Shown here one piece after another: positions 965 through 58,314 of a stretch of DNA of 64,000 bases. Within the stretch, counting starts at the first letter, position 1. Every line of letters starts with the position of its first letter. The stretch is from Bartonella rochalimae ATCC BAA-1498. Lineage in GTDB: Bacteria; Pseudomonadota; Alphaproteobacteria; Rhizobiales; Rhizobiaceae. Both the position numbers and the translations under genes were made by a program. Location of the stretch: NCBI RefSeq assembly GCF_000706645.1, contig NZ_KL407337.1, positions 188,320-252,319 on the forward strand, written 5' to 3'. The notes below the pieces were generated by a model, which was given only the letters and a program-made list of their open reading frames with translations, had not been told where the DNA came from and did no database searches.

Positions 965-1954
965 ATGACCCAATCAACTCAAAAGATCTTAAATCGACTC
1001 GATCGTATTTTAACCCTTGAATTAGTACGTGTGACTGAGTATGCCGCTGTTGCAGCTGCGCGTTGGCGAGGACGTGGTGATGAAAAAGCAGCCGATCAAG
1101 CTGCTGTGGATGCGATGCGTCGAGAACTTAATTGTTTACCTATTGATGGCATGGTTGTAATTGGTGAGGGAGAGCGTGATGAAGCTCCTATGCTTTATAT
1201 TGGAGAAAAAGTAGGACTTCAAAATGGAGTAGCTGTTGACATCGCTCTTGATCCACTTGAGGGAACAACTATTTGTGCAAAAAATCTTGCTAATTCACTT
1301 GCTGTGATTGCAATTGCCCAAAAAGGGAATTTACTTTATGCTCCTGATGTTTATATGGAAAAAATAGCTATCGGTCCTGGTTATCCAAAGGGAGTGGTTG
1401 ATATAGATGCGAATCCTGCCGATAATATTCATGCTCTTGCAAAAGCCAAAGGAATAGATGTTAATCAAATTACTGTCTGCATTATGGATCGGCCTCGTCA
1501 TGCAGAATTGATTAATAAAGTGCGTATGACTGGTGCAGCAATTCGTTTAATTAGTGATGGAGATGTTGCTGCTGTTATTCATACAACTGATTCAGAGGCA
1601 ACAGGTATTGATATTTATATGGGTATTGGTGGAGCACCAGAAGGTGTATTAGCTGCGGCAGCTTTACGTTGTACTGGTGGACAAATGCAAGGACGTTTAC
1701 AATTTAATACAGAAGAACAAATTGCTCGTGCTGCCAAGATGGGGATTAAGAATCCTAATAAGGTTTATACAATGGAAGAAATGGCCAAGGGTGATGTTTT
1801 ATTTGCAGCAACAGGTGTAACTGATGGTAATATGTTGTCTGGTGTTAAATTTACTCGTGATTATATTCAAACAGATAGTCTTGTGATGCGTTCATATACT
1901 GGTACAATTCGAAATATTAGAACACAACATAGAAATCAGTTGAAATTTGGCTGA
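965..1954 (+). CDS. glpX: Fructose-1,6-bisphosphatase class II (GlpX)
   Basis: The 329-residue product is full length for class II fructose-1,6-bisphosphatase, the cytoplasmic enzyme that removes the 1-phosphate from fructose-1,6-bisphosphate in gluconeogenesis. Diagnostic motifs are GEGERDEAP near residues 67-75 and DPLEGT near 96-101, which in this lithium-sensitive phosphatase fold bind divalent metal and phosphate. The ATG start is preceded by GGA at short distance. The gene is transcribed alone and ends facing ilvE, with an intrinsic terminator between them. Some members also hydrolyse sedoheptulose-1,7-bisphosphate; that cannot be decided here. Confidence 0.96.
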   Translation: MTQSTQKILNRLDRILTLELVRVTEYAAVAAARWRGRGDEKAADQAAVDAMRRELNCLPIDGMVVIGEGERDEAPMLYIGEKVGLQNGVAVDIALDPLEGTTICAKNLANSLAVIAIAQKGNLLYAPDVYMEKIAIGPGYPKGVVDIDANPADNIHALAKAKGIDVNQITVCIMDRPRHAELINKVRMTGAAIRLISDGDVAAVIHTTDSEATGIDIYMGIGGAPEGVLAAAALRCTGGQMQGRLQFNTEEQIARAAKMGIKNPNKVYTMEEMAKGDVLFAATGVTDGNMLSGVKFTRDYIQTDSLVMRSYTGTIRNIRTQHRNQLKFG

Positions 1955-2005
1955 TGATTTTTAGCTGATATTGCATAAAAATAAGGACGCATTGATTAGA
2001 GAAAT

Positions 2006-2040
2006 ATATCTTTATAAATTTTTGAAGATATTTTTGTTTT
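2006..2040 (+). terminator. Rho-independent terminator after glpX
   Basis: ATATCTT (2006-2012) and AAGATAT (2025-2031) form a seven-pair inverted repeat with a 12-base loop, followed directly by a run of T interrupted once by G. It lies about 50 bases after the glpX stop, in the gap between the convergent glpX and ilvE. The stem is AT-rich and therefore weak. Confidence 0.5.
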
Positions 2041-2052
2041 TTATTATAGATA

Positions 2053-3159
2053 CTATGATAATTGCACAGAGCGTACCCAGCCGTTTTTATCTTCTATATT
2101 TCCTTTTTGTATATCGATAAGTTGTGCACGAAGTTTTTCTGTAATCTCACCATATACTTCATTTCCGATGATACATTCTCCACCTTTATATTTAATACGT
2201 CCGATTGCTGTTATAACAGCAGCTGTGCCACATGCAAAAGCTTCTTTAAGGTGACCATTTTGCACATCTTCTTTCAGTGAATCAAAAGAATAAGGGCGTT
2301 CTTCTATTGTTAAACCCATTTGTTGTGCTAACTTCAAAATTGAATGACGCGTTATTCCTGCTAGAATAGTACCGTTGAGTGCAGGTGTTACAAGTATATT
2401 ATTAGCCATAATAAAGCAAATATTCATTCCACCAAGTTCTTCAATCCATTTTCGTTCAACCATATCAAGAAAAAGTACCTGACTACAATTATTTTGAGTT
2501 GCATTGTTTTGTGCGATTAAGCTTGCTGCATAGTTTCCGCCACATTTAGCAGTTCCTGTACCACCAGGGCCAGCACGGCTGTAGTCTGTTTCGAGACATA
2601 CGCTAATAGTTGTTTTTTGTCCTGTAAAATATGATTCAGCTGGAGATGCTATGACACAAAAGATATATTCTAGAGAAGGATGAACTTTCAATAGGCTGTC
2701 GTTACCAAACATAAAAGGGCGTAAATAGAGGCTAGCATTTGGATGATTAGAAACCCATTTTTGATCAATTTTTACTAATTAGTTCGCTGCATCCAAAAAG
2801 ATACCCTTTGGTAATTCAGGCATAGCTAATCGTTTTGCTGATTCCATAAAACGTTGTGCATTAGCCTCAGGGCGAAATAGTAAAATACGTCCATCCTTTG
2901 CTCGATATGCTTTTAAGCCTTCAAAGATTCCCTGCGCATAATGCAAAATGACACTTGATGGACTAATTTCTAAAGGTTTGTATTGAGAAATAATAGCATC
3001 ATGCCAACCTTTATCTTTAGTCCATTTAATAAGAGCCATATGGTCTATAAAAAATTGACCAAAACCAGGGCTTTTCAGAATTTCTTCACGCTTTTTATCT
3101 GATAAAGGTGAAGGATGTTTATCTATTTTAAACAAAAATGATGATTTAGGAGAATTCAT
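2053..3159 (-). pseudogene. ilvE: Branched-chain aminotransferase, split by one in-frame stop
   Basis: The two halves, 3159-2779 and the continuation to 2053, are in the same frame and together make a full-length (about 368 residues) fold-type IV branched-chain amino acid aminotransferase, a PLP enzyme of Leu/Ile/Val metabolism. They are separated by a single TAA at 2779-2781. Reading through it gives AAN-stop-LVKIDQKWV, where family members usually have a Gln, so one CAA to TAA change would explain it. The motif TAKCGGNYA, with the PLP-binding lysine, sits in the downstream half. The rest is free of frameshifts, so the break is recent, is suppressed, or is a sequencing error. An internal start at 2712 would lack the N-terminal domain. 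Functional state is uncertain. Confidence 0.85.
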
Positions 3160-3861: not shown

Positions 3862-6405
3862 TTAGTTTGTGATAAAACAGCTTCCCCCAGATTGTTTGAT
3901 ATTTTCACAAAGGCTTACAGCTTCATTACGGTTTTGTGTTTGAATTCGAACACGGTAGTAGGTACCTTTCCCTGATATGAGGGCAGATTGAATATTTAAT
4001 GGCCGAGAACCAATAATAGATCCAAATTTAGATTTTATTTTTCTCAAAGAATTTTGTGCTAATTCAGGAGTGGGTTGGGATGAAAGTTGTACATAATATT
4101 TTTCACCATTTTGTACTGCTGTTTGTCCTGAAGAATTTGAATGAGCGGAAGTTGGCATTGGAATCTTTGAATTCAATTGGGCAGGTAAAGGAATTGGTAT
4201 AAGTGAATTTCGAGTTTTTTCTTGAATAGTAGAGATAGCATTACTTTCTGTGATAATGTGGTCAATATCAGTTGTAGGAGTATGTTGCGTTTTTTCTTGA
4301 TTGTTTTCATTGTTCTTTACATCAGGTAATTGTGAAGAAACAGATGATTGTTTTTGAGATTGTTCAGATACAGTTTTTTTAGTCACTTCAGATTGAGCAA
4401 AAGGCTCTTCATTTTTGTAGTGAACTGGATTTACTACAATTGTACCATCTGGTTTTACAACAACAGTTTTAACTTCATGTGTCGGAACAGTATGATTAAG
4501 CGCTGCAGTAATTGCATCTTCAACATAAGCTTCATTAAGGGGAGAAGTTGTAGGATTTTCAGGTTCTTTCTTATTTAACGCTGTTAAATCTTCTGATGGT
4601 GCTTCATTAAGAGAAGAAGCTGTAGGATTTTCGGATCCTTTCTTGTTTAACACTGTTAAATCTTTAGGTGCTTCAGAATTATCAAAAAGAAATTGCTGCG
4701 CATTTTCTTGCTTCTCATTTTTTTCGGTTATCTGTTTGTAAAGATCTAAATTCTGCGTAATATTGCTTTCAGATTCGGTTATTTCTGGTTTGACTTTAAA
4801 AGGCGTATTATCAGCACGAATAATATTTGGACTTTCATTCGTGTCTGATAACATAAAAAAGTGAACATAACTGACAAGACCAATTGCAGCCAAAATAAGA
4901 AAAGCAAGACTTTTAGAGAGAATTCCTACAATAGAAAAACTTTTTGGGGAAGAATTTTCTAATGTATTAGCAGGTATCTCATTTGCATATCCATATTGTG
5001 AATCTTCAGGAAAAGAAGAGTAATAATGTTTCCCATTCTCAGGAGAAGAATAGTTGGTATTTGGTTCTTGAGTATTTATATGTAAATTCGCTGTTAGATT
5101 TTTTTTAGCAGGATAAAAAACTTCACTTTGCTGTTTTTGAGAAAAATTTTTGGTTATAGTGCTACCTACGCCGAATACATCAGTAAATTCTTTTTCTAAA
5201 CCATCATTAGATACATCGTATTTTGGTTCTTCATATGAAACTTCTGAGACCATAATTGGTTCAGTCTGTTCTACTATTTCCTCTGCAAATTTATAGGTAT
5301 CAACATTAGGAGGAGAATTATCGCTATGCGAAGAGTTTTCTATAGGAAAACTATTAGTTTGTGCAATATTAAAAGTCTTTAATGAGGATTGTGTATAATT
5401 TAAATTGTTTTGGTTATGTTGCTCTCTTTGTTCATTATTTTGAGAGTTATTTTTAATACTATGATTATCATTTTTAGTATATTGAATTTGAGCATTATTA
5501 TATAATGAATATTTTGTTTCATTATCTTCTTTTAAAGGTTCTGTTTCATTATGATTAATGATATGCTGTTCTTGTGAAAAGTCTTCTAAACTAACGGATT
5601 TATCAGTGGGTGACGAATCCATCATAGATGAAACATTCGTTGATTTATCCATTGTAGCGCTGTTTATATTTGAAACTGTATTAACAGATGAAGAAAATAT
5701 ACGCGTATCCGTGGAGGAAATTGGTATATTAACTTGACGATCTTCAACAAAATTTTGTTGAGTAGTTGGTCTTTCATATGAGTAATTTACAGATGTATTG
5801 TAAGTATTTTTCTGATAAGCATACTTTGGCTTGACACTATAAATATCTGACTGTTGGTCTTGCATTTGTAAAGGAGTCTTAGCCTCTTTATAAAGAGCTG
5901 CATTAGAAGATATATATCTACTTTGTGTACTCACTTCATCAGGAAAAGAATTTTGTATTTGTGCATTGAAATTATTGGTTTCAAAAGAAGAGTTAATATT
6001 GACAGTTTCTGAGGTGTTTTGTGTTGTCTGAGAGCTTGGGATAGGTAATGGAGAAAGTGTATTTAAAATTTGTTCTTCATTATGAGGAGAATATTCGGCT
6101 ACATTCCTATAGTTTTGGTTGTCGGTATCTAATTGTGGAGCCCATTGTTCATTGTCATCAAATGGTAATTCGCCAACTAAATTATTTTCAGTAATTTCTT
6201 CCAGAAAAGGCAAATCAAATGAAGAAGAGTCTCCAGAATTTTCAGATTCCAAATGTTCCGATTTTAATGAAGAATCAGGATTCTGAGCATTCTTTTTTTT
6301 ATTTTCTAAATTTGAATTGAAAATTTGCGTAAGCCTTTCCACCGGATCATAATGCTCATGATCTTGTTTCATTTCCTCTGGATTTTTGCGATCATTATCG
6401 CTCAT
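3862..6405 (-). CDS. SPOR-domain cell envelope protein
   Basis: This 847-residue protein has three parts. The first roughly 490 residues are a hydrophilic, presumably cytoplasmic region rich in Asn, Ser, Gln and Thr with low complexity. One membrane span follows at about 490-520, and a periplasmic part ends in a SPOR domain (about 768-847, starting near YYVQLSSQPT). SPOR domains bind septal peptidoglycan lacking stem peptides, so a role in division or envelope maintenance is likely. Residues about 577-625 hold two copies of a 24-residue repeat. It follows dgt and argS on the same strand, the order seen in many Hyphomicrobiales. The N-terminal half looks fast-evolving and has no recognised fold. 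Confidence 0.85.
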   Translation of the reverse strand: MSDNDRKNPEEMKQDHEHYDPVERLTQIFNSNLENKKKNAQNPDSSLKSEHLESENSGDSSSFDLPFLEEITENNLVGELPFDDNEQWAPQLDTDNQNYRNVAEYSPHNEEQILNTLSPLPIPSSQTTQNTSETVNINSSFETNNFNAQIQNSFPDEVSTQSRYISSNAALYKEAKTPLQMQDQQSDIYSVKPKYAYQKNTYNTSVNYSYERPTTQQNFVEDRQVNIPISSTDTRIFSSSVNTVSNINSATMDKSTNVSSMMDSSPTDKSVSLEDFSQEQHIINHNETEPLKEDNETKYSLYNNAQIQYTKNDNHSIKNNSQNNEQREQHNQNNLNYTQSSLKTFNIAQTNSFPIENSSHSDNSPPNVDTYKFAEEIVEQTEPIMVSEVSYEEPKYDVSNDGLEKEFTDVFGVGSTITKNFSQKQQSEVFYPAKKNLTANLHINTQEPNTNYSSPENGKHYYSSFPEDSQYGYANEIPANTLENSSPKSFSIVGILSKSLAFLILAAIGLVSYVHFFMLSDTNESPNIIRADNTPFKVKPEITESESNITQNLDLYKQITEKNEKQENAQQFLFDNSEAPKDLTVLNKKGSENPTASSLNEAPSEDLTALNKKEPENPTTSPLNEAYVEDAITAALNHTVPTHEVKTVVVKPDGTIVVNPVHYKNEEPFAQSEVTKKTVSEQSQKQSSVSSQLPDVKNNENNQEKTQHTPTTDIDHIITESNAISTIQEKTRNSLIPIPLPAQLNSKIPMPTSAHSNSSGQTAVQNGEKYYVQLSSQPTPELAQNSLRKIKSKFGSIIGSRPLNIQSALISGKGTYYRVRIQTQNRNEAVSLCENIKQSGGSCFITN
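4531..4675. repeat. Two tandem 72-base units inside SPOR gene
   Basis: Two adjacent units beginning with TTCATTAAG at 4531 and 4603 are similar along their length. In the protein they give units of the type DLTxLNKKxxENPTxSxLNE, 24 residues each, and a third degenerate partial copy (DAITAALN) follows. The unit length is a multiple of three, so copy-number change would keep the frame. Confidence 0.75.
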
Positions 6406-6571
6406 AGGTTTTCTCGCATGAAAATCTGCATTTTTTTATGTACAACTATTAATTCCATTCCATTGTATATTAAACTAATTTACTGTATATTAAATTTAAG
6501 TTTTTACCAATTAAAGAATATACAAAAAATATTCTAAATCAAATACTCATTTTAATATTTATAGAACTTTT

Positions 6572-8338
6572 TCAACGCATTTCTGTTAGTGCTTTTACTC
6601 CAATAATTGTGAGCCCTGATGATAAAATATTAATAATAGCTTGAATTAATCCAAGTCTGGCTAGTGATAATTCTTTATTATCAGGTTTAATAAAACGTAA
6701 ATTAGGATTGTCATTGCCCTTATTCCAATGTCCATGGAAGTTTGATGCAAGGTCATAAAGATAAAACGCTAATCGATGTGGTTCTTTGTAAATGACGGCT
6801 TGTTCAATGATCCGTGGATATTCGGTGAGTTTGCGTATTAACAATATTTCATTCTCATCGACTAATTGGTCAAGATGCGCAATCATTGTACTGTTTGAAG
6901 GATTTTCAGTACGGAAGACTTCTTGCGCTTGACGAAAGACTGAATGACAACGTGCATGTGCATATTGTACATAAAAAACCGGGTTATCTTTCGATTGTTC
7001 TGTTACTTTTGCGAAATCAAAATCAAGAGGTGCTTCGCATTTACGATAAAGCATCATAAAACGAACTGGGTCACGGCCAACTTCTTCTACAACATCACGA
7101 AGAGTAACAAAGGATCCAGCTCTTTTGGACATGCGTACGGGTTGACCATCGCGAAAAAGTTTCACTAACTGACACAAGAGAACAGTTAGTTTGGCTTTAT
7201 TTCCAGAAATTGCTTTTGCTACAGCTTCTAATCGCTTTACATAACCAGTGTGATCAGCGCCTAGAATGTAAATCATTTCATCAAAGTGGCGATTAAATTT
7301 ATCACGAAAATAAGCAACGTCAGCTGCAAAATAAGTATAAGAATTATCTGATTTAATTAGAGCACGATCTTGGTCGTCACCAATGTCAGTTGAACGAAAT
7401 AAGGTCTGTTCGCGTGGTTCCCAATCCTCTACGTTTTTCCCTTTTGGTGGTGGCAGTATACCCTTATAGATATAACCACTTAAAGTAAGATCAGTAATAG
7501 TACTACGGATGGCTTGCGCGTTATTTTCGTAAAGCGTGCGTTCCGAGAAAAAGACATCATGATAAATATTAAGAGCGGCTAGATCTTTGCGAATCATTGC
7601 CATCATTGCATCAATTGCGTGTTCCTGTATTGTAGATAAAGCTTCTTCTTGATCTATAATTAATAATTTGTCACCAAATTTTTTAGCAAGAGATTGCCCC
7701 AATGGTATGAGATATTCACCTGGATAAAGCCCTTCTGGAATTTCACTGATTGTTTGTCCAAGTGCTTCACGATAACGCAACATTACAGAACGGGCGAGTA
7801 CTTTTATTTGTTCACCAGCATCATTGATGTAATATTCTTTAGTAACTTCATAACCAGCAAACTGAAGCAAATTAGCAAGAACATCTCCAATAACAGCACC
7901 CCGGCAATGCCCAACATGCATAGGCCCGGTTGGATTTGCAGAAACATATTCGATATTGATTTTTTTTCCTTGTCCTATTTCAATTTGACCATAGGATATT
8001 CCTTTTTCAATCATTAACTTTAAGGCATTTTGCCAAAATGATTGTTTAAATTTTATATTAATAAATCCAGGGCCGGCTATATTGATGTAATCAATGTCGC
8101 TAACAGATTGATCACTATTGAGGAGCTTTATAATTTTTTCAGCAAGAGCACGTGGATTTAGTCCAACAGATTTAGCAAGTACCATAGCAGCATTTGTTGA
8201 TAAATCGCCATGTAAAGCATCACGTGGAGGGTCAGCAACGATTTTTGATAAATCTAAGATTTCACCATTTTTTCCTTTTATATCAGATAATTCGATTAAT
8301 TTTTTAATTTTATTTTCGAAATTCTTAAAAACATTCAT
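6572..8338 (-). CDS. argS: Arginyl-tRNA synthetase
   Basis: A full-length (588 residues from the ATG at 8338) class I aminoacyl-tRNA synthetase that charges tRNA-Arg. It has the N-terminal Arg-tRNA synthetase additional domain, the HIGH-type signature in [10 protein letters not shown], a KMSKS-type loop seen as VRMSKRAG, and a C-terminal DALR anticodon-binding domain ending in LTEMR. A TTG two codons upstream would overlap the dgt stop, but the ATG is better placed behind GGAATTT. Start lies two bases after the dgt stop codon, so the two are co-transcribed, with the SPOR gene downstream. Confidence 0.96.
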
Positions 8339-53712: not shown

Positions 53713-53789
53713 GGTCCCGTAGCTCAGTTGGATAGAGCAACGGCCTTCTAAGCCGCAGGTCACAGGTTCGAATCCTGTCGGGATCGCCA
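53713..53789 (+). tRNA. tRNA-Arg (anticodon UCU)
   Basis: A complete 77-base cloverleaf with encoded CCA. The acceptor GGTCCCG pairs with CGGGATC (one G-U), the anticodon loop is CTTCTAA with UCU at 34-36, and the T arm is ACAGG/CCTGT with loop TTCGAAT. The accessory island begins right after it, so this tRNA may have been the integration target, though I found no copy of its 3' end at the far side. Confidence 0.96.
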
Positions 53790-53961
53790 AATATCAATAA
53801 AATCAATAAGTTATATAAAGGTAAGGGAATTTTATAGTTATTGATTTTATTATGTTTTTTCTGTTCTATTCCGAACCTTTTTATAGCTTATTCTCAATCA
53901 TTTTATCCAAATATAAAACTAAATTTGGTTGTATAAAACTTAACCCTTATTTTTATTAATC

Positions 53962-53978
53962 GTATAGTGATGCTATAC
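53962..53978 (+). promoter_or_regulatory. Operator/promoter of higBA
   Basis: GTATAG (53962-53967) and CTATAC (53973-53978) form a perfect inverted repeat with a five-base centre, 24 bases before the toxin start. The left arm contains a -10-like TATAGT. In many higBA loci the HigA dimer binds just such a palindrome over the -10 box to shut off its own operon. A weak -35-like TTAACC lies at the right distance at 53940-53945. Confidence 0.65.
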
Positions 53979-54001
53979 AATAAGGGGCTGCAATAGCAAT
54001 T

Positions 54002-54274
54002 GTGAGTTTCAAACATAAGGGCTTAAAATTATTTTATACAACAGGGTCTACAAAAGCTATTAGAGCAGATCACGTAAAAAAGTTATGCGTTATCTTAACG
54101 GCTTTAACAAGTGCTACTACGTCCGAAATCTTGAAAGCACCTGCCTTTAAAATGCCTTCTCTTAAAGGTGAACTTACAGGATATTATTCTCTATGGGTGA
54201 ATGGAAATTGGCGTGTTACTTTTCGCTTTATAGGAACAGATGTGGAGCTTGTTGATTATCAAGACTATCATTGA
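54002..54274 (+). CDS. higB: HigB/RelE-family toxin
   Basis: A 90-residue mRNA-interferase-type toxin of the HigB (RelE superfamily) group. It starts SFKHKGLKLFYTTGSTKAI, the common HigB opening, and ends with NGNWRVTFRFIGTDVELVDYQDYH, where Arg and the terminal DYH motif are typical catalytic or binding positions. It probably cuts mRNA on the ribosome. A GTG start was chosen because the frame has no ATG there and closes with TAA 21 bases upstream. The antitoxin follows after 18 bases, the reverse order (toxin first) usual for higBA. Confidence 0.85.
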   Translation: MSFKHKGLKLFYTTGSTKAIRADHVKKLCVILTALTSATTSEILKAPAFKMPSLKGELTGYYSLWVNGNWRVTFRFIGTDVELVDYQDYH

Positions 54275-54292
54275 TAAAAGGAACAAAAAGTG

Positions 54293-54940
54293 ATGCATAA
54301 TTCTGCACATCCGGGTGAAGTTCTAAAAGTGGCTTTCTTGGAAGAAATGGGGCTATCAATACAAAAATTAGCTGACCATCTCCATATGACAAGAGCTTCT
54401 CTCTCAAGAGTGATTAATGGTCATGCTTCTATGCGTACAGAGCTTGCAATTAAATTAGAATTAGCTGGTTTTAGTAAAGCTAAATTTTGGTTGGATATGC
54501 AAAAAAATTATAATTTATGGCAAACTAAGCATTTTGGTTTGACCATAGAACAGGAAAAAAATCCGCTTTCGAGTATTTACATAGGGTGGCTTTGTTTGAA
54601 AGGTGAGCTCACTCAAGAGCAATATGATGCAGCACAAAAATATCTACAGATAAGAAACAATTACCTTTGTGCAAAAGGTTTTCCTTGTGCTATTTATGAT
54701 GAAATGCCTTCCTCTTCTGATGAGAAGGAAAGAGATAAATGGGTTCAGTTGGCAACAGAACAATTTTCAAGTATGCAAAAGATAGTAAGAGAAGTACAAT
54801 GCCGCTATAAACAATATAACCTGCATTCCGCATTACAATATCTTGTCGTAGAAGATCAAACATTACCGTATCTTGTGTCTTCATTGCGATTTGCTCTGAA
54901 TGCTCTCCGGAAATATTTTGTCAGAAAAACTAAATGTTAA
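54293..54940 (+). CDS. higA: HigA antitoxin fused to a phage-like C-terminal domain
   Basis: A 215-residue protein, about twice normal HigA length. Residues 1-80 are a standard HigA/XRE domain (HPGEVLKVAFLEEMGLS, then LADHLHMTRASLSRVINGH), which binds DNA and neutralises HigB. From about residue 85 a second segment starts, including YIGWLCLKGELTQEQYDAA and YLCAKGFPCAIYDEMPSSSD, with a long helical end. That part resembles small hypothetical proteins of alphaproteobacterial prophages, not antitoxins, and may be a gene fusion by deletion. The ATG at 54293 follows AAGGA; a GTG at 54290 is the alternative. Confidence 0.75.
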   Translation: MHNSAHPGEVLKVAFLEEMGLSIQKLADHLHMTRASLSRVINGHASMRTELAIKLELAGFSKAKFWLDMQKNYNLWQTKHFGLTIEQEKNPLSSIYIGWLCLKGELTQEQYDAAQKYLQIRNNYLCAKGFPCAIYDEMPSSSDEKERDKWVQLATEQFSSMQKIVREVQCRYKQYNLHSALQYLVVEDQTLPYLVSSLRFALNALRKYFVRKTKC

Positions 54941-54986
54941 ATGTTTTACTGGTATTTTTATAAAAGCATTAAAAGCTCTTGAGTTC

Positions 54987-55023
54987 TTGAAATAGTTTTC
55001 AGAATGTTATATATTTATATAAT
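54987..55023 (+). promoter_or_regulatory. Promoter and AT-rich palindrome of mazEF
   Basis: TTGAAA (54987-54992) and TATATT (55010-55015) are spaced by 17 bases ahead of the mazE-like ATG at 55043. The -10 overlaps a near-palindromic AT run ending at 55023, a plausible site for autoregulation by the antitoxin-toxin complex. Confidence 0.5.
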
Positions 55024-55042
55024 ATTTGAGAGAGAGTGTTTT

Positions 55043-55300
55043 ATGCATACAACAAAATTACGTAAAGTTGGAGGATCAGTGATGCTTTCCATACCGCCAG
55101 CATTACTTGATGTTCTTCATCTTACAGAAAATACGCAAGTTGGTTTGGCTGTTGATAATGGACAATTGATTGTGAAACCACAGACATTCCCTAGTTATAC
55201 TCTTGATGAATTATTAGCCCAATGTAATTCCTCAGATGATTTTGCAGATGAAGATATGGAGTGGTTTGGTGCTCAACCTGTTGGTAAAGAGCTGTTGTGA
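55043..55300 (+). CDS. MazE/PemI-type AbrB-fold antitoxin
   Basis: An 85-residue antitoxin with the SpoVT/AbrB swapped-hairpin DNA-binding domain: TTKLRKVGGSVMLSIPPALLDVL followed by LAVDNGQLIVKP, then an acidic tail (SSDDFADEDMEWF) that would wrap the toxin. The ATG at 55043 has GAGAGAG upstream; the frame is open 13 codons further but without a ribosome site. Its stop overlaps the toxin start (TGATG), so translation is coupled. Specific subfamily (MazE, PemI or ChpS) is not certain. Confidence 0.88.
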   Translation: MHTTKLRKVGGSVMLSIPPALLDVLHLTENTQVGLAVDNGQLIVKPQTFPSYTLDELLAQCNSSDDFADEDMEWFGAQPVGKELL

Positions 55301-55632
55301 TGAAGCGGGGAGAAATTTGGTTTGTATCTCTTGACCCATCTTCAGGCTATGAGCAAAAAGGAACGCGTCCTGTACTAATTGTATCACTGGAGGCATTTAA
55401 TCGTGTAACGAAAACACCCATTGTCTTGCCTATTACAAGCGGAAGAAATTTTGCTAGAACAGCAGGTTTTGCTGTATCATTAATGGGAGCGGGATTGCAT
55501 ACAACGGGCGTAATACGTTGTGATCAACCACGTGCTCTTGATATTGGAGCGCGTCAAGGGAAGAAACTGGAAACAGTTCCACCTATGATTATGAATGAAG
55601 TCCTTGCTAAGCTAGCGACATTTCTGACGTAG
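55300..55632 (+). CDS. MazF/PemK/ChpB-type endoribonuclease toxin
   Basis: A 110-residue MazF-like RNase. Family marks: KRGEIWFVSLDPSSGYEQKGTRP with the catalytic Arg region, VLIVSLEAFN, LPITSGRNFARTAGFAVSL and the VIRCDQPRALD segment. It cuts mRNA at short sequences when the labile antitoxin is lost. It looks intact, with a complete antitoxin gene directly before it. An in-frame GTG precedes the ATG by one codon. The tail of a second, related toxin gene lies about 900 bases downstream. Confidence 0.9.
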   Translation: MKRGEIWFVSLDPSSGYEQKGTRPVLIVSLEAFNRVTKTPIVLPITSGRNFARTAGFAVSLMGAGLHTTGVIRCDQPRALDIGARQGKKLETVPPMIMNEVLAKLATFLT

Positions 55633-55695
55633 TTGGTTTAAATCTTTATCTTGTTGTGCCGTAAAACACCATTCTTTGAGACGGGGGAAAAAGTC

Positions 55696-55966
55696 ATGTA
55701 AAAGATTCATTTGATATGAAAAAAAAGCTCTCAGTTTTTTAAAAAAATGCGATAAAAAAGAAGCACATCGGATTGTTGATTTTTTAGATCAGCATGTCGC
55801 TTCTCTTGAAGATGTGCGTGCAATAGGTAAGCCCTTAAGAGGCCAATTATCAGGTTTATGGAGGTATCGTGTAGGAGATTACAGGATACTCTGTGATCTT
55901 TATGATAAAGAGCTTGTCGTGTTAGTCTTGGCTGTTGGACATAGAAAAAATATATATAAAGGTTAA
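55696..55966 (+). pseudogene. relE-type toxin relic
   Basis: From 55718 an open frame of 82 codons reads EKKALSFLKKCDKKEAHRIV, then DFLDQHVASL, LWRYRVGDYRILCDLYDK and VLAVGHRKNIYKG before TAA at 55964. It is a near-complete RelE/ParE-superfamily toxin with the usual WRYRVGDYRI and VGHR motifs. The start is lost: ATG at 55696 is followed at once by TAA, and the frame that gives KIHLI must shift to join the rest. No intact antitoxin gene is next to it, so the lesion was probably needed for its survival. Confidence 0.8.
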
Positions 55967-56068
55967 GGAAAATCTTTCAGAAAATATTTTGATTGTTAGA
56001 GCATTGTCCAAATAAATTTGATCAACGCTATAACTGCTTAAATTTGATAAATACACTTAAGATTATTT

Positions 56069-56377
56069 TTAAATGCTACAGAATGTTGGAATTTCACTGA
56101 CATCTGTTTCACGTTCAGCGTGCCAAGCATCATAAGCTGCTTGCATACGTAACCAAACAGCAGCTCCATCACCAAACATTTTTCCTAGACGTGCCGAAAC
56201 AGAAGGCAAAATAGATTTTTTTGCCTTCAAGATATCATAAAGATGCTGACGCGATATACCAAGCATTTGTGCAATTTCCAATTTTGTTTTGCCGGTTTTT
56301 GGAATAATTTCTGCTAATAAATCACCTGGATGAGAGGGGCAGCGGTTTTTATGGCGTTTTGCTGGAAAATCATTCAT
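56069..56377 (-). CDS. higA: Orphan HigA-family antitoxin
   Basis: A 102-residue XRE-type HigA antitoxin: CPSHPGDLLAEIIPKTGKTKLEIAQMLGISRQHLYDILKAKK, read in parts, then VSARLGKMFGDGAAVWLRMQAAYDAWHAE. The ATG at 56377 lies behind GAGGACA; the frame is open 40 codons more upstream but that part is the out-of-frame shadow of a higB tail. Its toxin partner, directly upstream, is truncated. It is of normal HigA length, unlike the fused HigA at 54293, and may still repress its own promoter or cross-neutralise another HigB. Confidence 0.85.
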   Translation of the reverse strand: MNDFPAKRHKNRCPSHPGDLLAEIIPKTGKTKLEIAQMLGISRQHLYDILKAKKSILPSVSARLGKMFGDGAAVWLRMQAAYDAWHAERETDVSEIPTFCSI

Positions 56378-56387
56378 AATTTTGTCC

Positions 56388-56520
56388 TCAATGATATTGT
56401 TCAAGATCAACACGATAGGCATTATATGCCTCAAATTCGAATGTAATACACCATGGTCCATTAACATGGATAGTGTAACGGATAGGATGAAATCCAATCA
56501 AAGCATGAAAATTAAATCAA
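56388..56520 (-). pseudogene. higB: C-terminal relic of a second higB toxin
   Basis: On the minus strand a frame without a start reads FNFHALIGFHPIRYTIHVNG, then PWCITFEFEAYNAYRVDLEQYH and TGA at 56388-56390, ten bases before the orphan higA ATG. This is the C-terminal half of a HigB toxin, including the terminal YH motif. The N-terminal half is missing, cut where the mazF relic begins at about 56516, so one recombination joined two broken toxin genes tail to tail. Confidence 0.75.
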
Positions 56521-57557: not shown

Positions 57558-57890
57558 ATGACATCAGCAAAGATCACTCAGCCTTCACCAACAGTCAAGA
57601 GGCGTCTTCCTCCAAGAGCAGGGAGTGGCCGTGTTAAAGGCGTTCCGAATAAAATGACGCGTATTTTGAAAGAAGCAGTGCTTAAAGCCGCTGAGAATGC
57701 CGGGAATAAAATAGGGAATGATGGTTTGGTTTCGTATTTAGAAAAGCAAGCTGTCAACTGTCCAGCGGCTTATTTGGCATTGCTTGGTAAAGTTTTACCG
57801 TTACAGGTTACGGGTGAGAATGGTGGAGCAATTCAGATGATAGGGCGCGTAGAAATAGCGCCTTTGGTTCATGACAGTAAGACAGATTAG
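57558..57890 (+). CDS. Prophage protein preceding the terminase
   Basis: A 110-residue protein beginning with a basic, Pro/Arg-rich segment (KRRLPPRAGSGRVKGVPNKMTR), then helices and the stretch AAYLALLGKVLPLQVTGENGG. Proteins of this kind sit directly before the large terminase in alphaproteobacterial prophages and may serve as the small terminase or a packaging accessory; that is inferred from position. It overlaps the terminase start by 20 bases. It looks intact, but is useless without the rest of the phage. Confidence 0.65.
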   Translation: MTSAKITQPSPTVKRRLPPRAGSGRVKGVPNKMTRILKEAVLKAAENAGNKIGNDGLVSYLEKQAVNCPAAYLALLGKVLPLQVTGENGGAIQMIGRVEIAPLVHDSKTD

Positions 57891-58314
57891 GATTGTCCCG
57901 AAGCTTATACCGATTTTTTCAGGAGATGCTTTTGTAAGAGCGGCATGGGGCGGACGAGGATCAGGGAAGACCAGGTCCTTTGCTTTGATGGCCGCTTTAA
58001 AGGGGTATCAATTTGGTATGGCCGGTATATCAGGGATGCTTCTTTGTGCACGACAGTTTCAGAATTCGCTTGCAGAGAGTTCATTAGAAGAGATTAAACG
58101 GGCGATAGAAGCGTATGATTTTTTACAGGACTATTATAAGGTCGGAGAGGCATCGATTAAGTCGCGTGATGGTCGTATAGTTTTTCAGTTTTCTGGATTA
58201 GACCGGAATATAGCGAGTATCAAATCAATGGGTCGGATTTTGCTTTGTTGGGTTGATGAGACCGAACCGGTGACTGAGATGGCTTGGCAAATGCTGACAA
58301 TAATACAATTGTAG
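57871..58314 (+). pseudogene. Large terminase subunit, N-terminal fragment
   Basis: A 147-residue fragment of a PBSX-like (Terminase_3) large terminase, the packaging motor ATPase. It has the Walker A loop WGGRGSGKTRS and the Walker B region ILLCWVDETEPV. It then breaks off after EMAWQML, where full proteins run on for another 250 or more residues with the nuclease domain. The last few residues (TIIQL) come from DNA past the deletion point near 58295. No other phage gene follows; divK starts 190 bases on. Confidence 0.85.

Follow-up and report, generated by a model that had tools for sequence, protein, structure and literature searches.

The window, a 64,000-nucleotide stretch of Bartonella rochalimae ATCC BAA-1498, contains a HigBA-type toxin-antitoxin locus whose antitoxin gene is fused to part of a prophage gene (Table 1). 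Directly 3' of the frame of a RelE-fold HigB toxin, a single unbroken frame of 215-216 residues runs from a GTG at 54290 or an ATG at 54293 to a stop at 54940. Residues 1-80 of its product corresponded to positions 1-80 of the 81-position family model TIGR02607 (antidote_HigA), with a score of 97.7 bits against a cut-off of 47.7, and the HigA domain is thus complete in the fusion. In a PHROGs profile search residues 77-214 corresponded to positions 41-178 of the 181 positions of phrog_15385 (E 1.2e-67), a prophage protein family without functional annotation in that collection. This match covers most of the family length; the first 40 positions are missing from the fusion. Pfam recognised the helix-turn-helix of the HigA half alone. 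Both profile matches lie far beyond chance and bear out the preliminary description of this DNA, which had proposed an ordinary HigA joined to a prophage-like domain of about 130 residues. That description gave HigA the first 80 residues and began the added part at residue 85; comparison with both parent genes moved the boundary to residue 77/78 (54525/54526).

Table 1. Coordinates of the features discussed, in window numbering except for the last row, which gives sites in ten genomes.
Feature	Position	Strand	Evidence
tRNA-Arg (tct) beside the prophage remnant	53713..53789	+	ARAGORN
Promoter-like site of higBA, -35 and -10	53940..53968	+	Consensus scan, 9/12 matches
Operator palindrome TCGTATA-N7-TATACAA	53960..53980	.	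Same palindrome form in 16/16 related higBA loci
HigB toxin frame, 90 aa from GTG	54002..54274	+	PF05015 HigB-like_toxin, E 7e-18; start comparison across 16 loci
HigA part, residues 1-77 and first two bases of codon 78	54293..54525	+	TIGR02607; identity to ordinary HigA
Deletion joint between higA parent and phrog_15385 parent, one shared base	54525..54526	.	Base-by-base comparison with both G041 parents and other loci
Prophage part, phrog_15385 minus its first ~40 residues	54526..54940	+	phrog_15385, E 1.2e-67; AlphaFold2
Small gene, antitoxin by position, with MazF-like toxin gene; same two genes downstream of phrog_15385 in G055	55043..55632	+	phrog_4324, 1.8e-21; phrog_1936 MazF-like growth inhibitor, 5.5e-32
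RelE-like remnant, same prophage kind	55709..55993	+	92.7% DNA identity to G055; name from frame reading
Small gene just before terminase, phrog_11043	57558..57890	+	PHROGs; same-strand downstream neighbour of phrog_15385 in 19/41 viral loci
Terminase large-subunit gene, 5' fragment	57871..58314	+	Matches first part of the 441-aa G055 protein
HigA-fragment sites	G067:C29, G052:C10, G028:C57, G049:C6, G026:C1, G050:C74, G054:C10, G055:C1:16884, G039:C1, G066:C2		

Each half was compared with its unfused relatives. The HigA half was 94-96% identical to the ordinary HigA of genomes G055, G028, G018 and G041. A search of the genus genomes with HigA residues 1-78 alone returned 35 other copies from 30 genomes at 86-96% identity, none with an inner stop. 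From stop to stop these frames measure 100-119 codons against 220 for the fusion, in agreement with the earlier claim of an antitoxin of doubled length. The phage half was, among the matches listed, 76% identical to the stand-alone protein of G041 (Bartonella sp. AR 15-3); in one alignment it was 60-76% identical to 18 of 19 Bartonella stand-alone copies and 52% identical to the remaining one. As in an ordinary type II HigBA module, the toxin gene comes first and the antitoxin second, and the fusion shares with ordinary HigA the N-terminal 77 residues, including the helix-turn-helix, and a palindromic operator at the promoter. It differs from the ordinary HigA of the same Bartonella prophage family in that the last ~21 residues are replaced by 138 residues of phage protein. 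Stand-alone phrog_15385 proteins were mostly 164-179 residues long in the alignment. Unlike them, the fusion is without the ~40-residue N-terminus, which in many stand-alone copies contains, near the start, a KKRGRPK stretch that we take to be AT-hook-like.

Similarity to the two parents breaks sharply at the joint. Sequence up to 54531 matched higBA units and aligned at 80-93% to 16 higBA loci, and sequence from 54525 onward matched and aligned to stand-alone phrog_15385 genes elsewhere. In all 16 of the fetched loci higA continues past the position equivalent to the joint for about 20 more codons, which form the ordinary C-terminus and are unrelated to the phage half. These loci rule out that the phage half is merely the end of a long HigA.

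Related Bartonella prophages carry, in order, higBA, a convergent integrase, early genes, ssb, phrog_15385 and the terminase genes. In four genomes (G041, G055, G052 and G018) higA and the phrog_15385 gene lie on the same strand, 9.8-10.9 kb apart; the distance from the joint-equivalent position to the start of the phrog_15385 gene was 10,877 bases in G055, 9,831 in G052 and 10,731 in G018. It was 2,059 bases in G048, because that prophage has a deletion of its own, and in locus L072 higBA has the phrog_15385 gene at its opposite side. The remaining 11 of the 16 loci end 0.4-9.0 kb to the right, before any phrog_15385 gene is reached. An integrase gene or fragment convergent to higA was present in 16/16 loci, with similarity that sets in no earlier than 43 bases before the joint-equivalent position and no later than 141 bases after it. 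In the window, no integrase similarity and no ssb were found between 48001 and 64000. PHROGs assigned an integrase, annealing protein, exonuclease, repressor, primosomal protein, ssb and terminase genes to the G055 prophage.

The cleanest unfused case is G041, in which a single prophage holds both parents. Its order is higB, higA, an exonuclease and an integrase on the opposite strand (the integrase beside higA), a RuvC-like gene named from a reading of its frame, a replication gene, ssb, phrog_15385, the pre-terminase gene and terminase; no match to the annealing protein or repressor of G055 was found in it. Base-by-base comparison with G041 showed that 10,564 bases are missing in the window, from higA codon 78 to about codon 41 of the phrog_15385 gene, and that the two parents are joined in frame with one shared base. 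Judged from the sequence, a single shared base is as expected for illegitimate recombination. The DNA flanking the remnant was 91% identical to the window in G010, 90% in G041, 87% in G042 and 86% in G015. The interval 54525-54948 was closest to G041 (84.7%), and the block 54527-55634 (85%) was matched only by prophages of the G055 type. By these alignments the prophage of the window is a mosaic.

Elsewhere in the genome of the window, 28 matches to the lost segment were found, the best at 82%. Two regions that hold part of these matches, C1:500-525 kb and C2:168-182 kb, are other remnants and lack the end of the window's higA. We considered whether the fusion was the reciprocal product of recombination with the C2 integrase remnant and rejected this, as that remnant lies beside a tRNA-Ser and has no higA end. 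In the second remnant (L004, G000:C1:510000-525000) another HigA occupies a 100-codon frame and HigB is shortened; ssb is matched too, and the phrog_15385 copy is interrupted by a stop codon within its profile match. In the third (L143, G000:C2:168000-182000, positions 5050-7060) an integrase of the same type, now decayed, comes immediately after a tRNA-Ser, and higBA is absent. An independent, smaller remnant of the deletion type was observed in G048 (L070, 8415-11794): only the last ~75 residues of an integrase are matched, ssb and then phrog_15385 follow about 1.5 kb further on, and the higA and phrog_15385 frames are both open.

The remnant that carries the fusion extends from the tRNA-Arg gene to about 58297, where the sequence of prophage-free sites resumes. 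The matching interval in the close relatives G042, G015 and G010 measures 0.3-0.8 kb, and at prophage-free sites similarity continues for 19-75 bases beyond the tRNA. The higBA unit likewise starts beside a tRNA-Gln or tRNA-Lys in loci L057, L064, L065, L067 and L068. At the right end, phage similarity stops at 58289-58297 in the loci that reach that far. The phrog_11043 gene is presumably, by its position, the terminase small subunit. The 441-residue G055 protein to which the next gene corresponds belongs to phrog_3717, terminase large subunit (4.4e-68); since this gene is cut in the window at about 58297, the remnant has suffered at least two losses.

Several genes of toxin-antitoxin type lie side by side between 53960 and 56500: higB with the fused higA, the small gene with the MazF-like gene, the RelE-like remnant and, on the minus strand, a HigA-like frame at 56069-56497, which like the RelE-like remnant was named from a reading of its frame. 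The remnant keeps these genes; the integrase, the replication genes and most of the terminase are gone. In lacking integrase and replication genes, lying beside a tRNA and having a cut terminase, it resembles grounded (defective) prophages, and it differs from the usual ones in that a deletion happens to join two genes in frame. Grounded prophages have, according to a review, a strong tendency to suffer deletions (PMC6379469), which fits an origin of the fusion by deletion.

The phage half belongs to a widespread family. With the full fusion as query, at least 63 of the 71 genus genomes matched one half or the other, with at least 26 matches in one genome, and among the matches listed stand-alone phrog_15385 copies were abundant in Bartonella. 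A profile of the stand-alone protein found 19 matches in 397 genomes of the order, 17 of them outside the genus. Eight of these 17 spanned most of the profile at E 2.8e-17 or better; the other nine had weak scores and covered part of the first half only. The family thus reaches beyond Bartonella into further genera of the order; as had been proposed, the added part comes from a prophage protein.

In viral contigs (IMG/VR) 41 phrog_15385 loci were found. Several of the contigs are near-identical, and the locus counts that follow are not independent. In 41/41 loci the phrog_15385 gene is preceded, on its own strand and at a distance of no more than about 1.1 kb, by ssb, which is often its immediate neighbour and in several loci is separated from it by another gene; in the 3 kb fetched downstream, the small pre-terminase gene was present in 19/41 and a terminase large-subunit gene in 17/41. 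This order of ssb, phrog_15385 and terminase is not kept in the window, where ssb is missing, higA adjoins instead and the terminase side is retained. A different HigA (45-48% identical) was observed shortly before ssb, on the opposite strand, in 11/41 of these loci (L102-L142), and a HigB match in 9/41, several of the contigs being near-identical.

Searches for the nature of the phage half gave few leads. tblastn against the INPHARED phages returned no match, Pfam and NCBIfam assigned it no family, and nothing above the Pfam cut-offs was obtained for seven stand-alone or distant copies (six about full length and one fragment). PDB sequences gave weak rows only, the best being Caprin-2 (E 0.011). 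A sub-significant resemblance to phrog_1510, annotated as superinfection exclusion, was seen in L080 (E 0.014), L017 (E 0.14) and the window's phage half (E 0.15). The AlphaFold2 model of the phage half (pLDDT 84.1, pTM 0.77) predicts that this part folds independently; modelling of the complete fusion gave a result of too low quality for use (pLDDT 54.3, pTM 0.31). No PDB fold and no entry of a viral fold library matched the phage-half model at E <= 0.001. The best viral entry was the uncharacterised A0A6J5PRJ2 (E 1.2e-3, TM 0.74), with a DUF6456 protein at rank 5 (E 0.022), and sigma-28 appeared at rank 19 of the PDB fold search (E 3.6). A fold like that of Q21, a phage late-transcription regulator, or like that of sigma factors is suggested by these models as a lead only.

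We then asked how widely the fusion occurs, in genome sets that hold one genome per species. Of the 71 genus genomes, 1 contained a degenerate joint pattern, with two mismatches allowed. None of the viral contigs and none of the GTDB r220 contigs, two collections from which the window's own genome is possibly absent, contained the exact 23-base joint, and none of 59 loci from a protein search of the GTDB r220 contigs covered the whole fusion. Among the matches listed, eleven stretches with long frames or odd matches were inspected. None was recognisable as a HigA fusion; in two of them (L207 and L208) a run of N takes the place of the part before the domain. In the matches listed from the literature, no title or abstract opening named a HigA-prophage fusion in Bartonella. 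The preliminary description had offered the fusion, if conserved, as a candidate for an undescribed phage-responsive toxin-antitoxin system; its occurrence in a single genus genome, with the intervening DNA present in relatives and absent here, speaks against this. As far as the genome sets allow, the fusion is confined to one genome and lies at an evident deletion, with ~10 kb lost between the parents. Of the possibilities raised beforehand, relatives that hold both parents and the intervening sequence support the passive one, a by-product of two genes being joined by a deletion.

Two other arrangements were observed during these searches. In L010 (G011, 1504-2469, minus strand) a phrog_15385 gene is continuous in frame with an upstream membrane-protein-like gene in an open frame of 322 codons, for which no Pfam match was found; in several related loci the membrane-protein-like protein upstream of phrog_15385 is apparently a separate frame. 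In addition, a HigA fragment recurs in 10 genomes, where residues 2-34 (or 2-35) are matched at 67-76% identity, each within a 43-codon open frame (Table 1).

Pairwise dN/dS of the phage half was 0.16-0.39 against ten stand-alone copies; most of the divergence behind these values must predate the fusion. Relative to 53 outgroups, pN was 0.188 for the fused domain and 0.173 and 0.167 for its two nearest stand-alone relatives, with the larger value falling to the fused domain in 49 and in 50 of the 53 comparisons, respectively; these comparisons are not independent of one another. The corresponding pS was not higher (0.503, against 0.531 and 0.527). At columns common to at least 95% of the other sequences the fused domain departed twice, which placed it sixth (tied) of 57, the median being 0. 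The open 215-codon frame, the retention of nearly all residues conserved in the family and the dN/dS values fit either constraint or a young fusion. The pattern of pN and pS would likewise fit a young fusion or mildly relaxed constraint, and shows no new function.

The toxin gene and its control region were compared with related loci. The HigB frame is open and was 87-93% identical over 90 residues in 7 of 10 loci; the other three gave partial matches at 67-91%. At the usual HigB start position, where 16/16 relatives have a standard start, the window has no standard start codon (region 53990-54004); the earliest codon that could serve instead is a GTG three codons downstream. HigB was present with its full 93 residues in 12 of the 16 relatives and broken or shortened in the other four; loss of the toxin is therefore common and the module often dispensable. 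The -10 of the promoter-like site lies within the operator, and the -35 box matches the consensus at fewer bases than do those of the 8 relatives, out of 16, that were compared in register. The promoter scan alone proves nothing, because six such sites were found in the region against 5.7 expected from shuffles. Toxin gene and operator had been described as intact: the operator palindrome and the open HigB frame were confirmed, and the usual start codon and the full strength of the -35 box were not. That the fusion must still neutralise HigB, as had been concluded, does not follow, because a toxin without the start position used by 16/16 relatives may hardly be made. The HigA half probably still binds the operator and HigB, to judge from its sequence.

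The explanation that best accounts for these results is that the gene is a chimera, produced when a tRNA-associated Bartonella prophage lost about 10 kb from its interior, with an active HigA half, a passenger phage half and a weak HigB (probability about 0.88). According to this explanation, ~10 kb between higA and phrog_15385 was lost and the ends were joined in frame by chance. The deletion would have grounded the prophage, leaving it without integrase and replication genes, and the fused frame would be transcribed from the higBA promoter. With the conserved HigA domain whole, the HigA half could still dimerise on the operator and cover HigB, while the phage half would be an independently folded and inert passenger. 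With its usual start codon lost, HigB may be expressed weakly or not at all; the antitoxin's tail would then be under little selection, and the fusion tolerated for that reason. A C-terminal tail is not essential in another HigA: when the last 42 residues of Mycobacterium tuberculosis HigA1 are removed, the protein is still a soluble dimer and works in vivo (PMC6377645). HigA1 with its chaperone-addiction sequence (ChAD), part of a tripartite toxin-antitoxin-chaperone system, resembles the fusion in being a HigA with extra C-terminal sequence; the addition there is a short chaperone-addiction tail with its own SecB partner (PMC6377645), in contrast to the phage domain of the fusion, which is predicted to be folded.

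Other explanations were weighed against the same evidence. Wrong joining of two prophage copies during assembly might be suspected, as further remnants of the same prophage kind exist in the genome, but the only other copies of the halves that were found are 44% (HigA) and 61% (phage half) identical and so cannot recruit the same reads. Moreover, the joint lies inside a 1.10 Mb contig, and what borders it on either side, the tRNA-Arg gene and the downstream sequence, also borders the shorter site in G042, G015 and G010; an artefact is scarcely credible. It is improbable, though less far-fetched, that the phage half alters the stability or solubility of the antitoxin and that the locus is a working module with a shifted set-point, both halves being selected. 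The HigA half spans the family model in full and reaches 96% identity to ordinary HigA, the frame is open, and by analogy with M. tuberculosis HigA1, where a C-terminal extension alters how stable the antitoxin is (PMC6377645), the added domain might act in this way. No sign of selection for the fused state was found, however; the expression signals of the toxin have decayed, and the breakage or shortening of HigB in 4/16 related loci marks the module as one that is often dispensable.

The fusion could also be a functional phage-responsive antitoxin. Its phrog_15385 domain would then detect a phage during infection, for instance through mixing with the phrog_15385 protein that this phage makes or with that protein's partners; HigA would be withdrawn or degraded, and HigB would arrest the cell. 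The predicted independent folding of the domain, the retained operator and the frequency of stand-alone phrog_15385 prophages in the genus, among the matches listed, and in viral contigs are compatible with such a role, and the sub-significant resemblance to the superinfection-exclusion family phrog_1510 is a hint at most. None of this gives the role positive support, and we consider it very unlikely, given the presence of the fusion in 1/71 genomes, its origin by deletion with the unfused state present in relatives, the lost toxin start position and weaker -35 box, and amino-acid change in the phage half that is slightly faster than in the two nearest stand-alone relatives while pS is not higher. 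There is an equally slight chance that the chimera tethers a domain from the ssb-terminase region of a phage to the higBA operator and to HigB, and that the phrog_15385 protein of a superinfecting phage could pull the antitoxin off. If that were true, decay of the prophage would by accident have made an addiction module sense this family of phages. Should the fusion prove to be present in every strain of the species and responsive to phage, it would illustrate how an antitoxin first acquires a sensor domain.

The best reading remains that the fusion is real but an ordinary chimeric gene, a passive scar of prophage decay. It cautions against inferring a new defence system solely from an antitoxin of doubled length beside an open toxin frame. 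As both parents, the lost segment and the joint can be named, the locus offers a clean worked example of how prophage decay creates multidomain genes.
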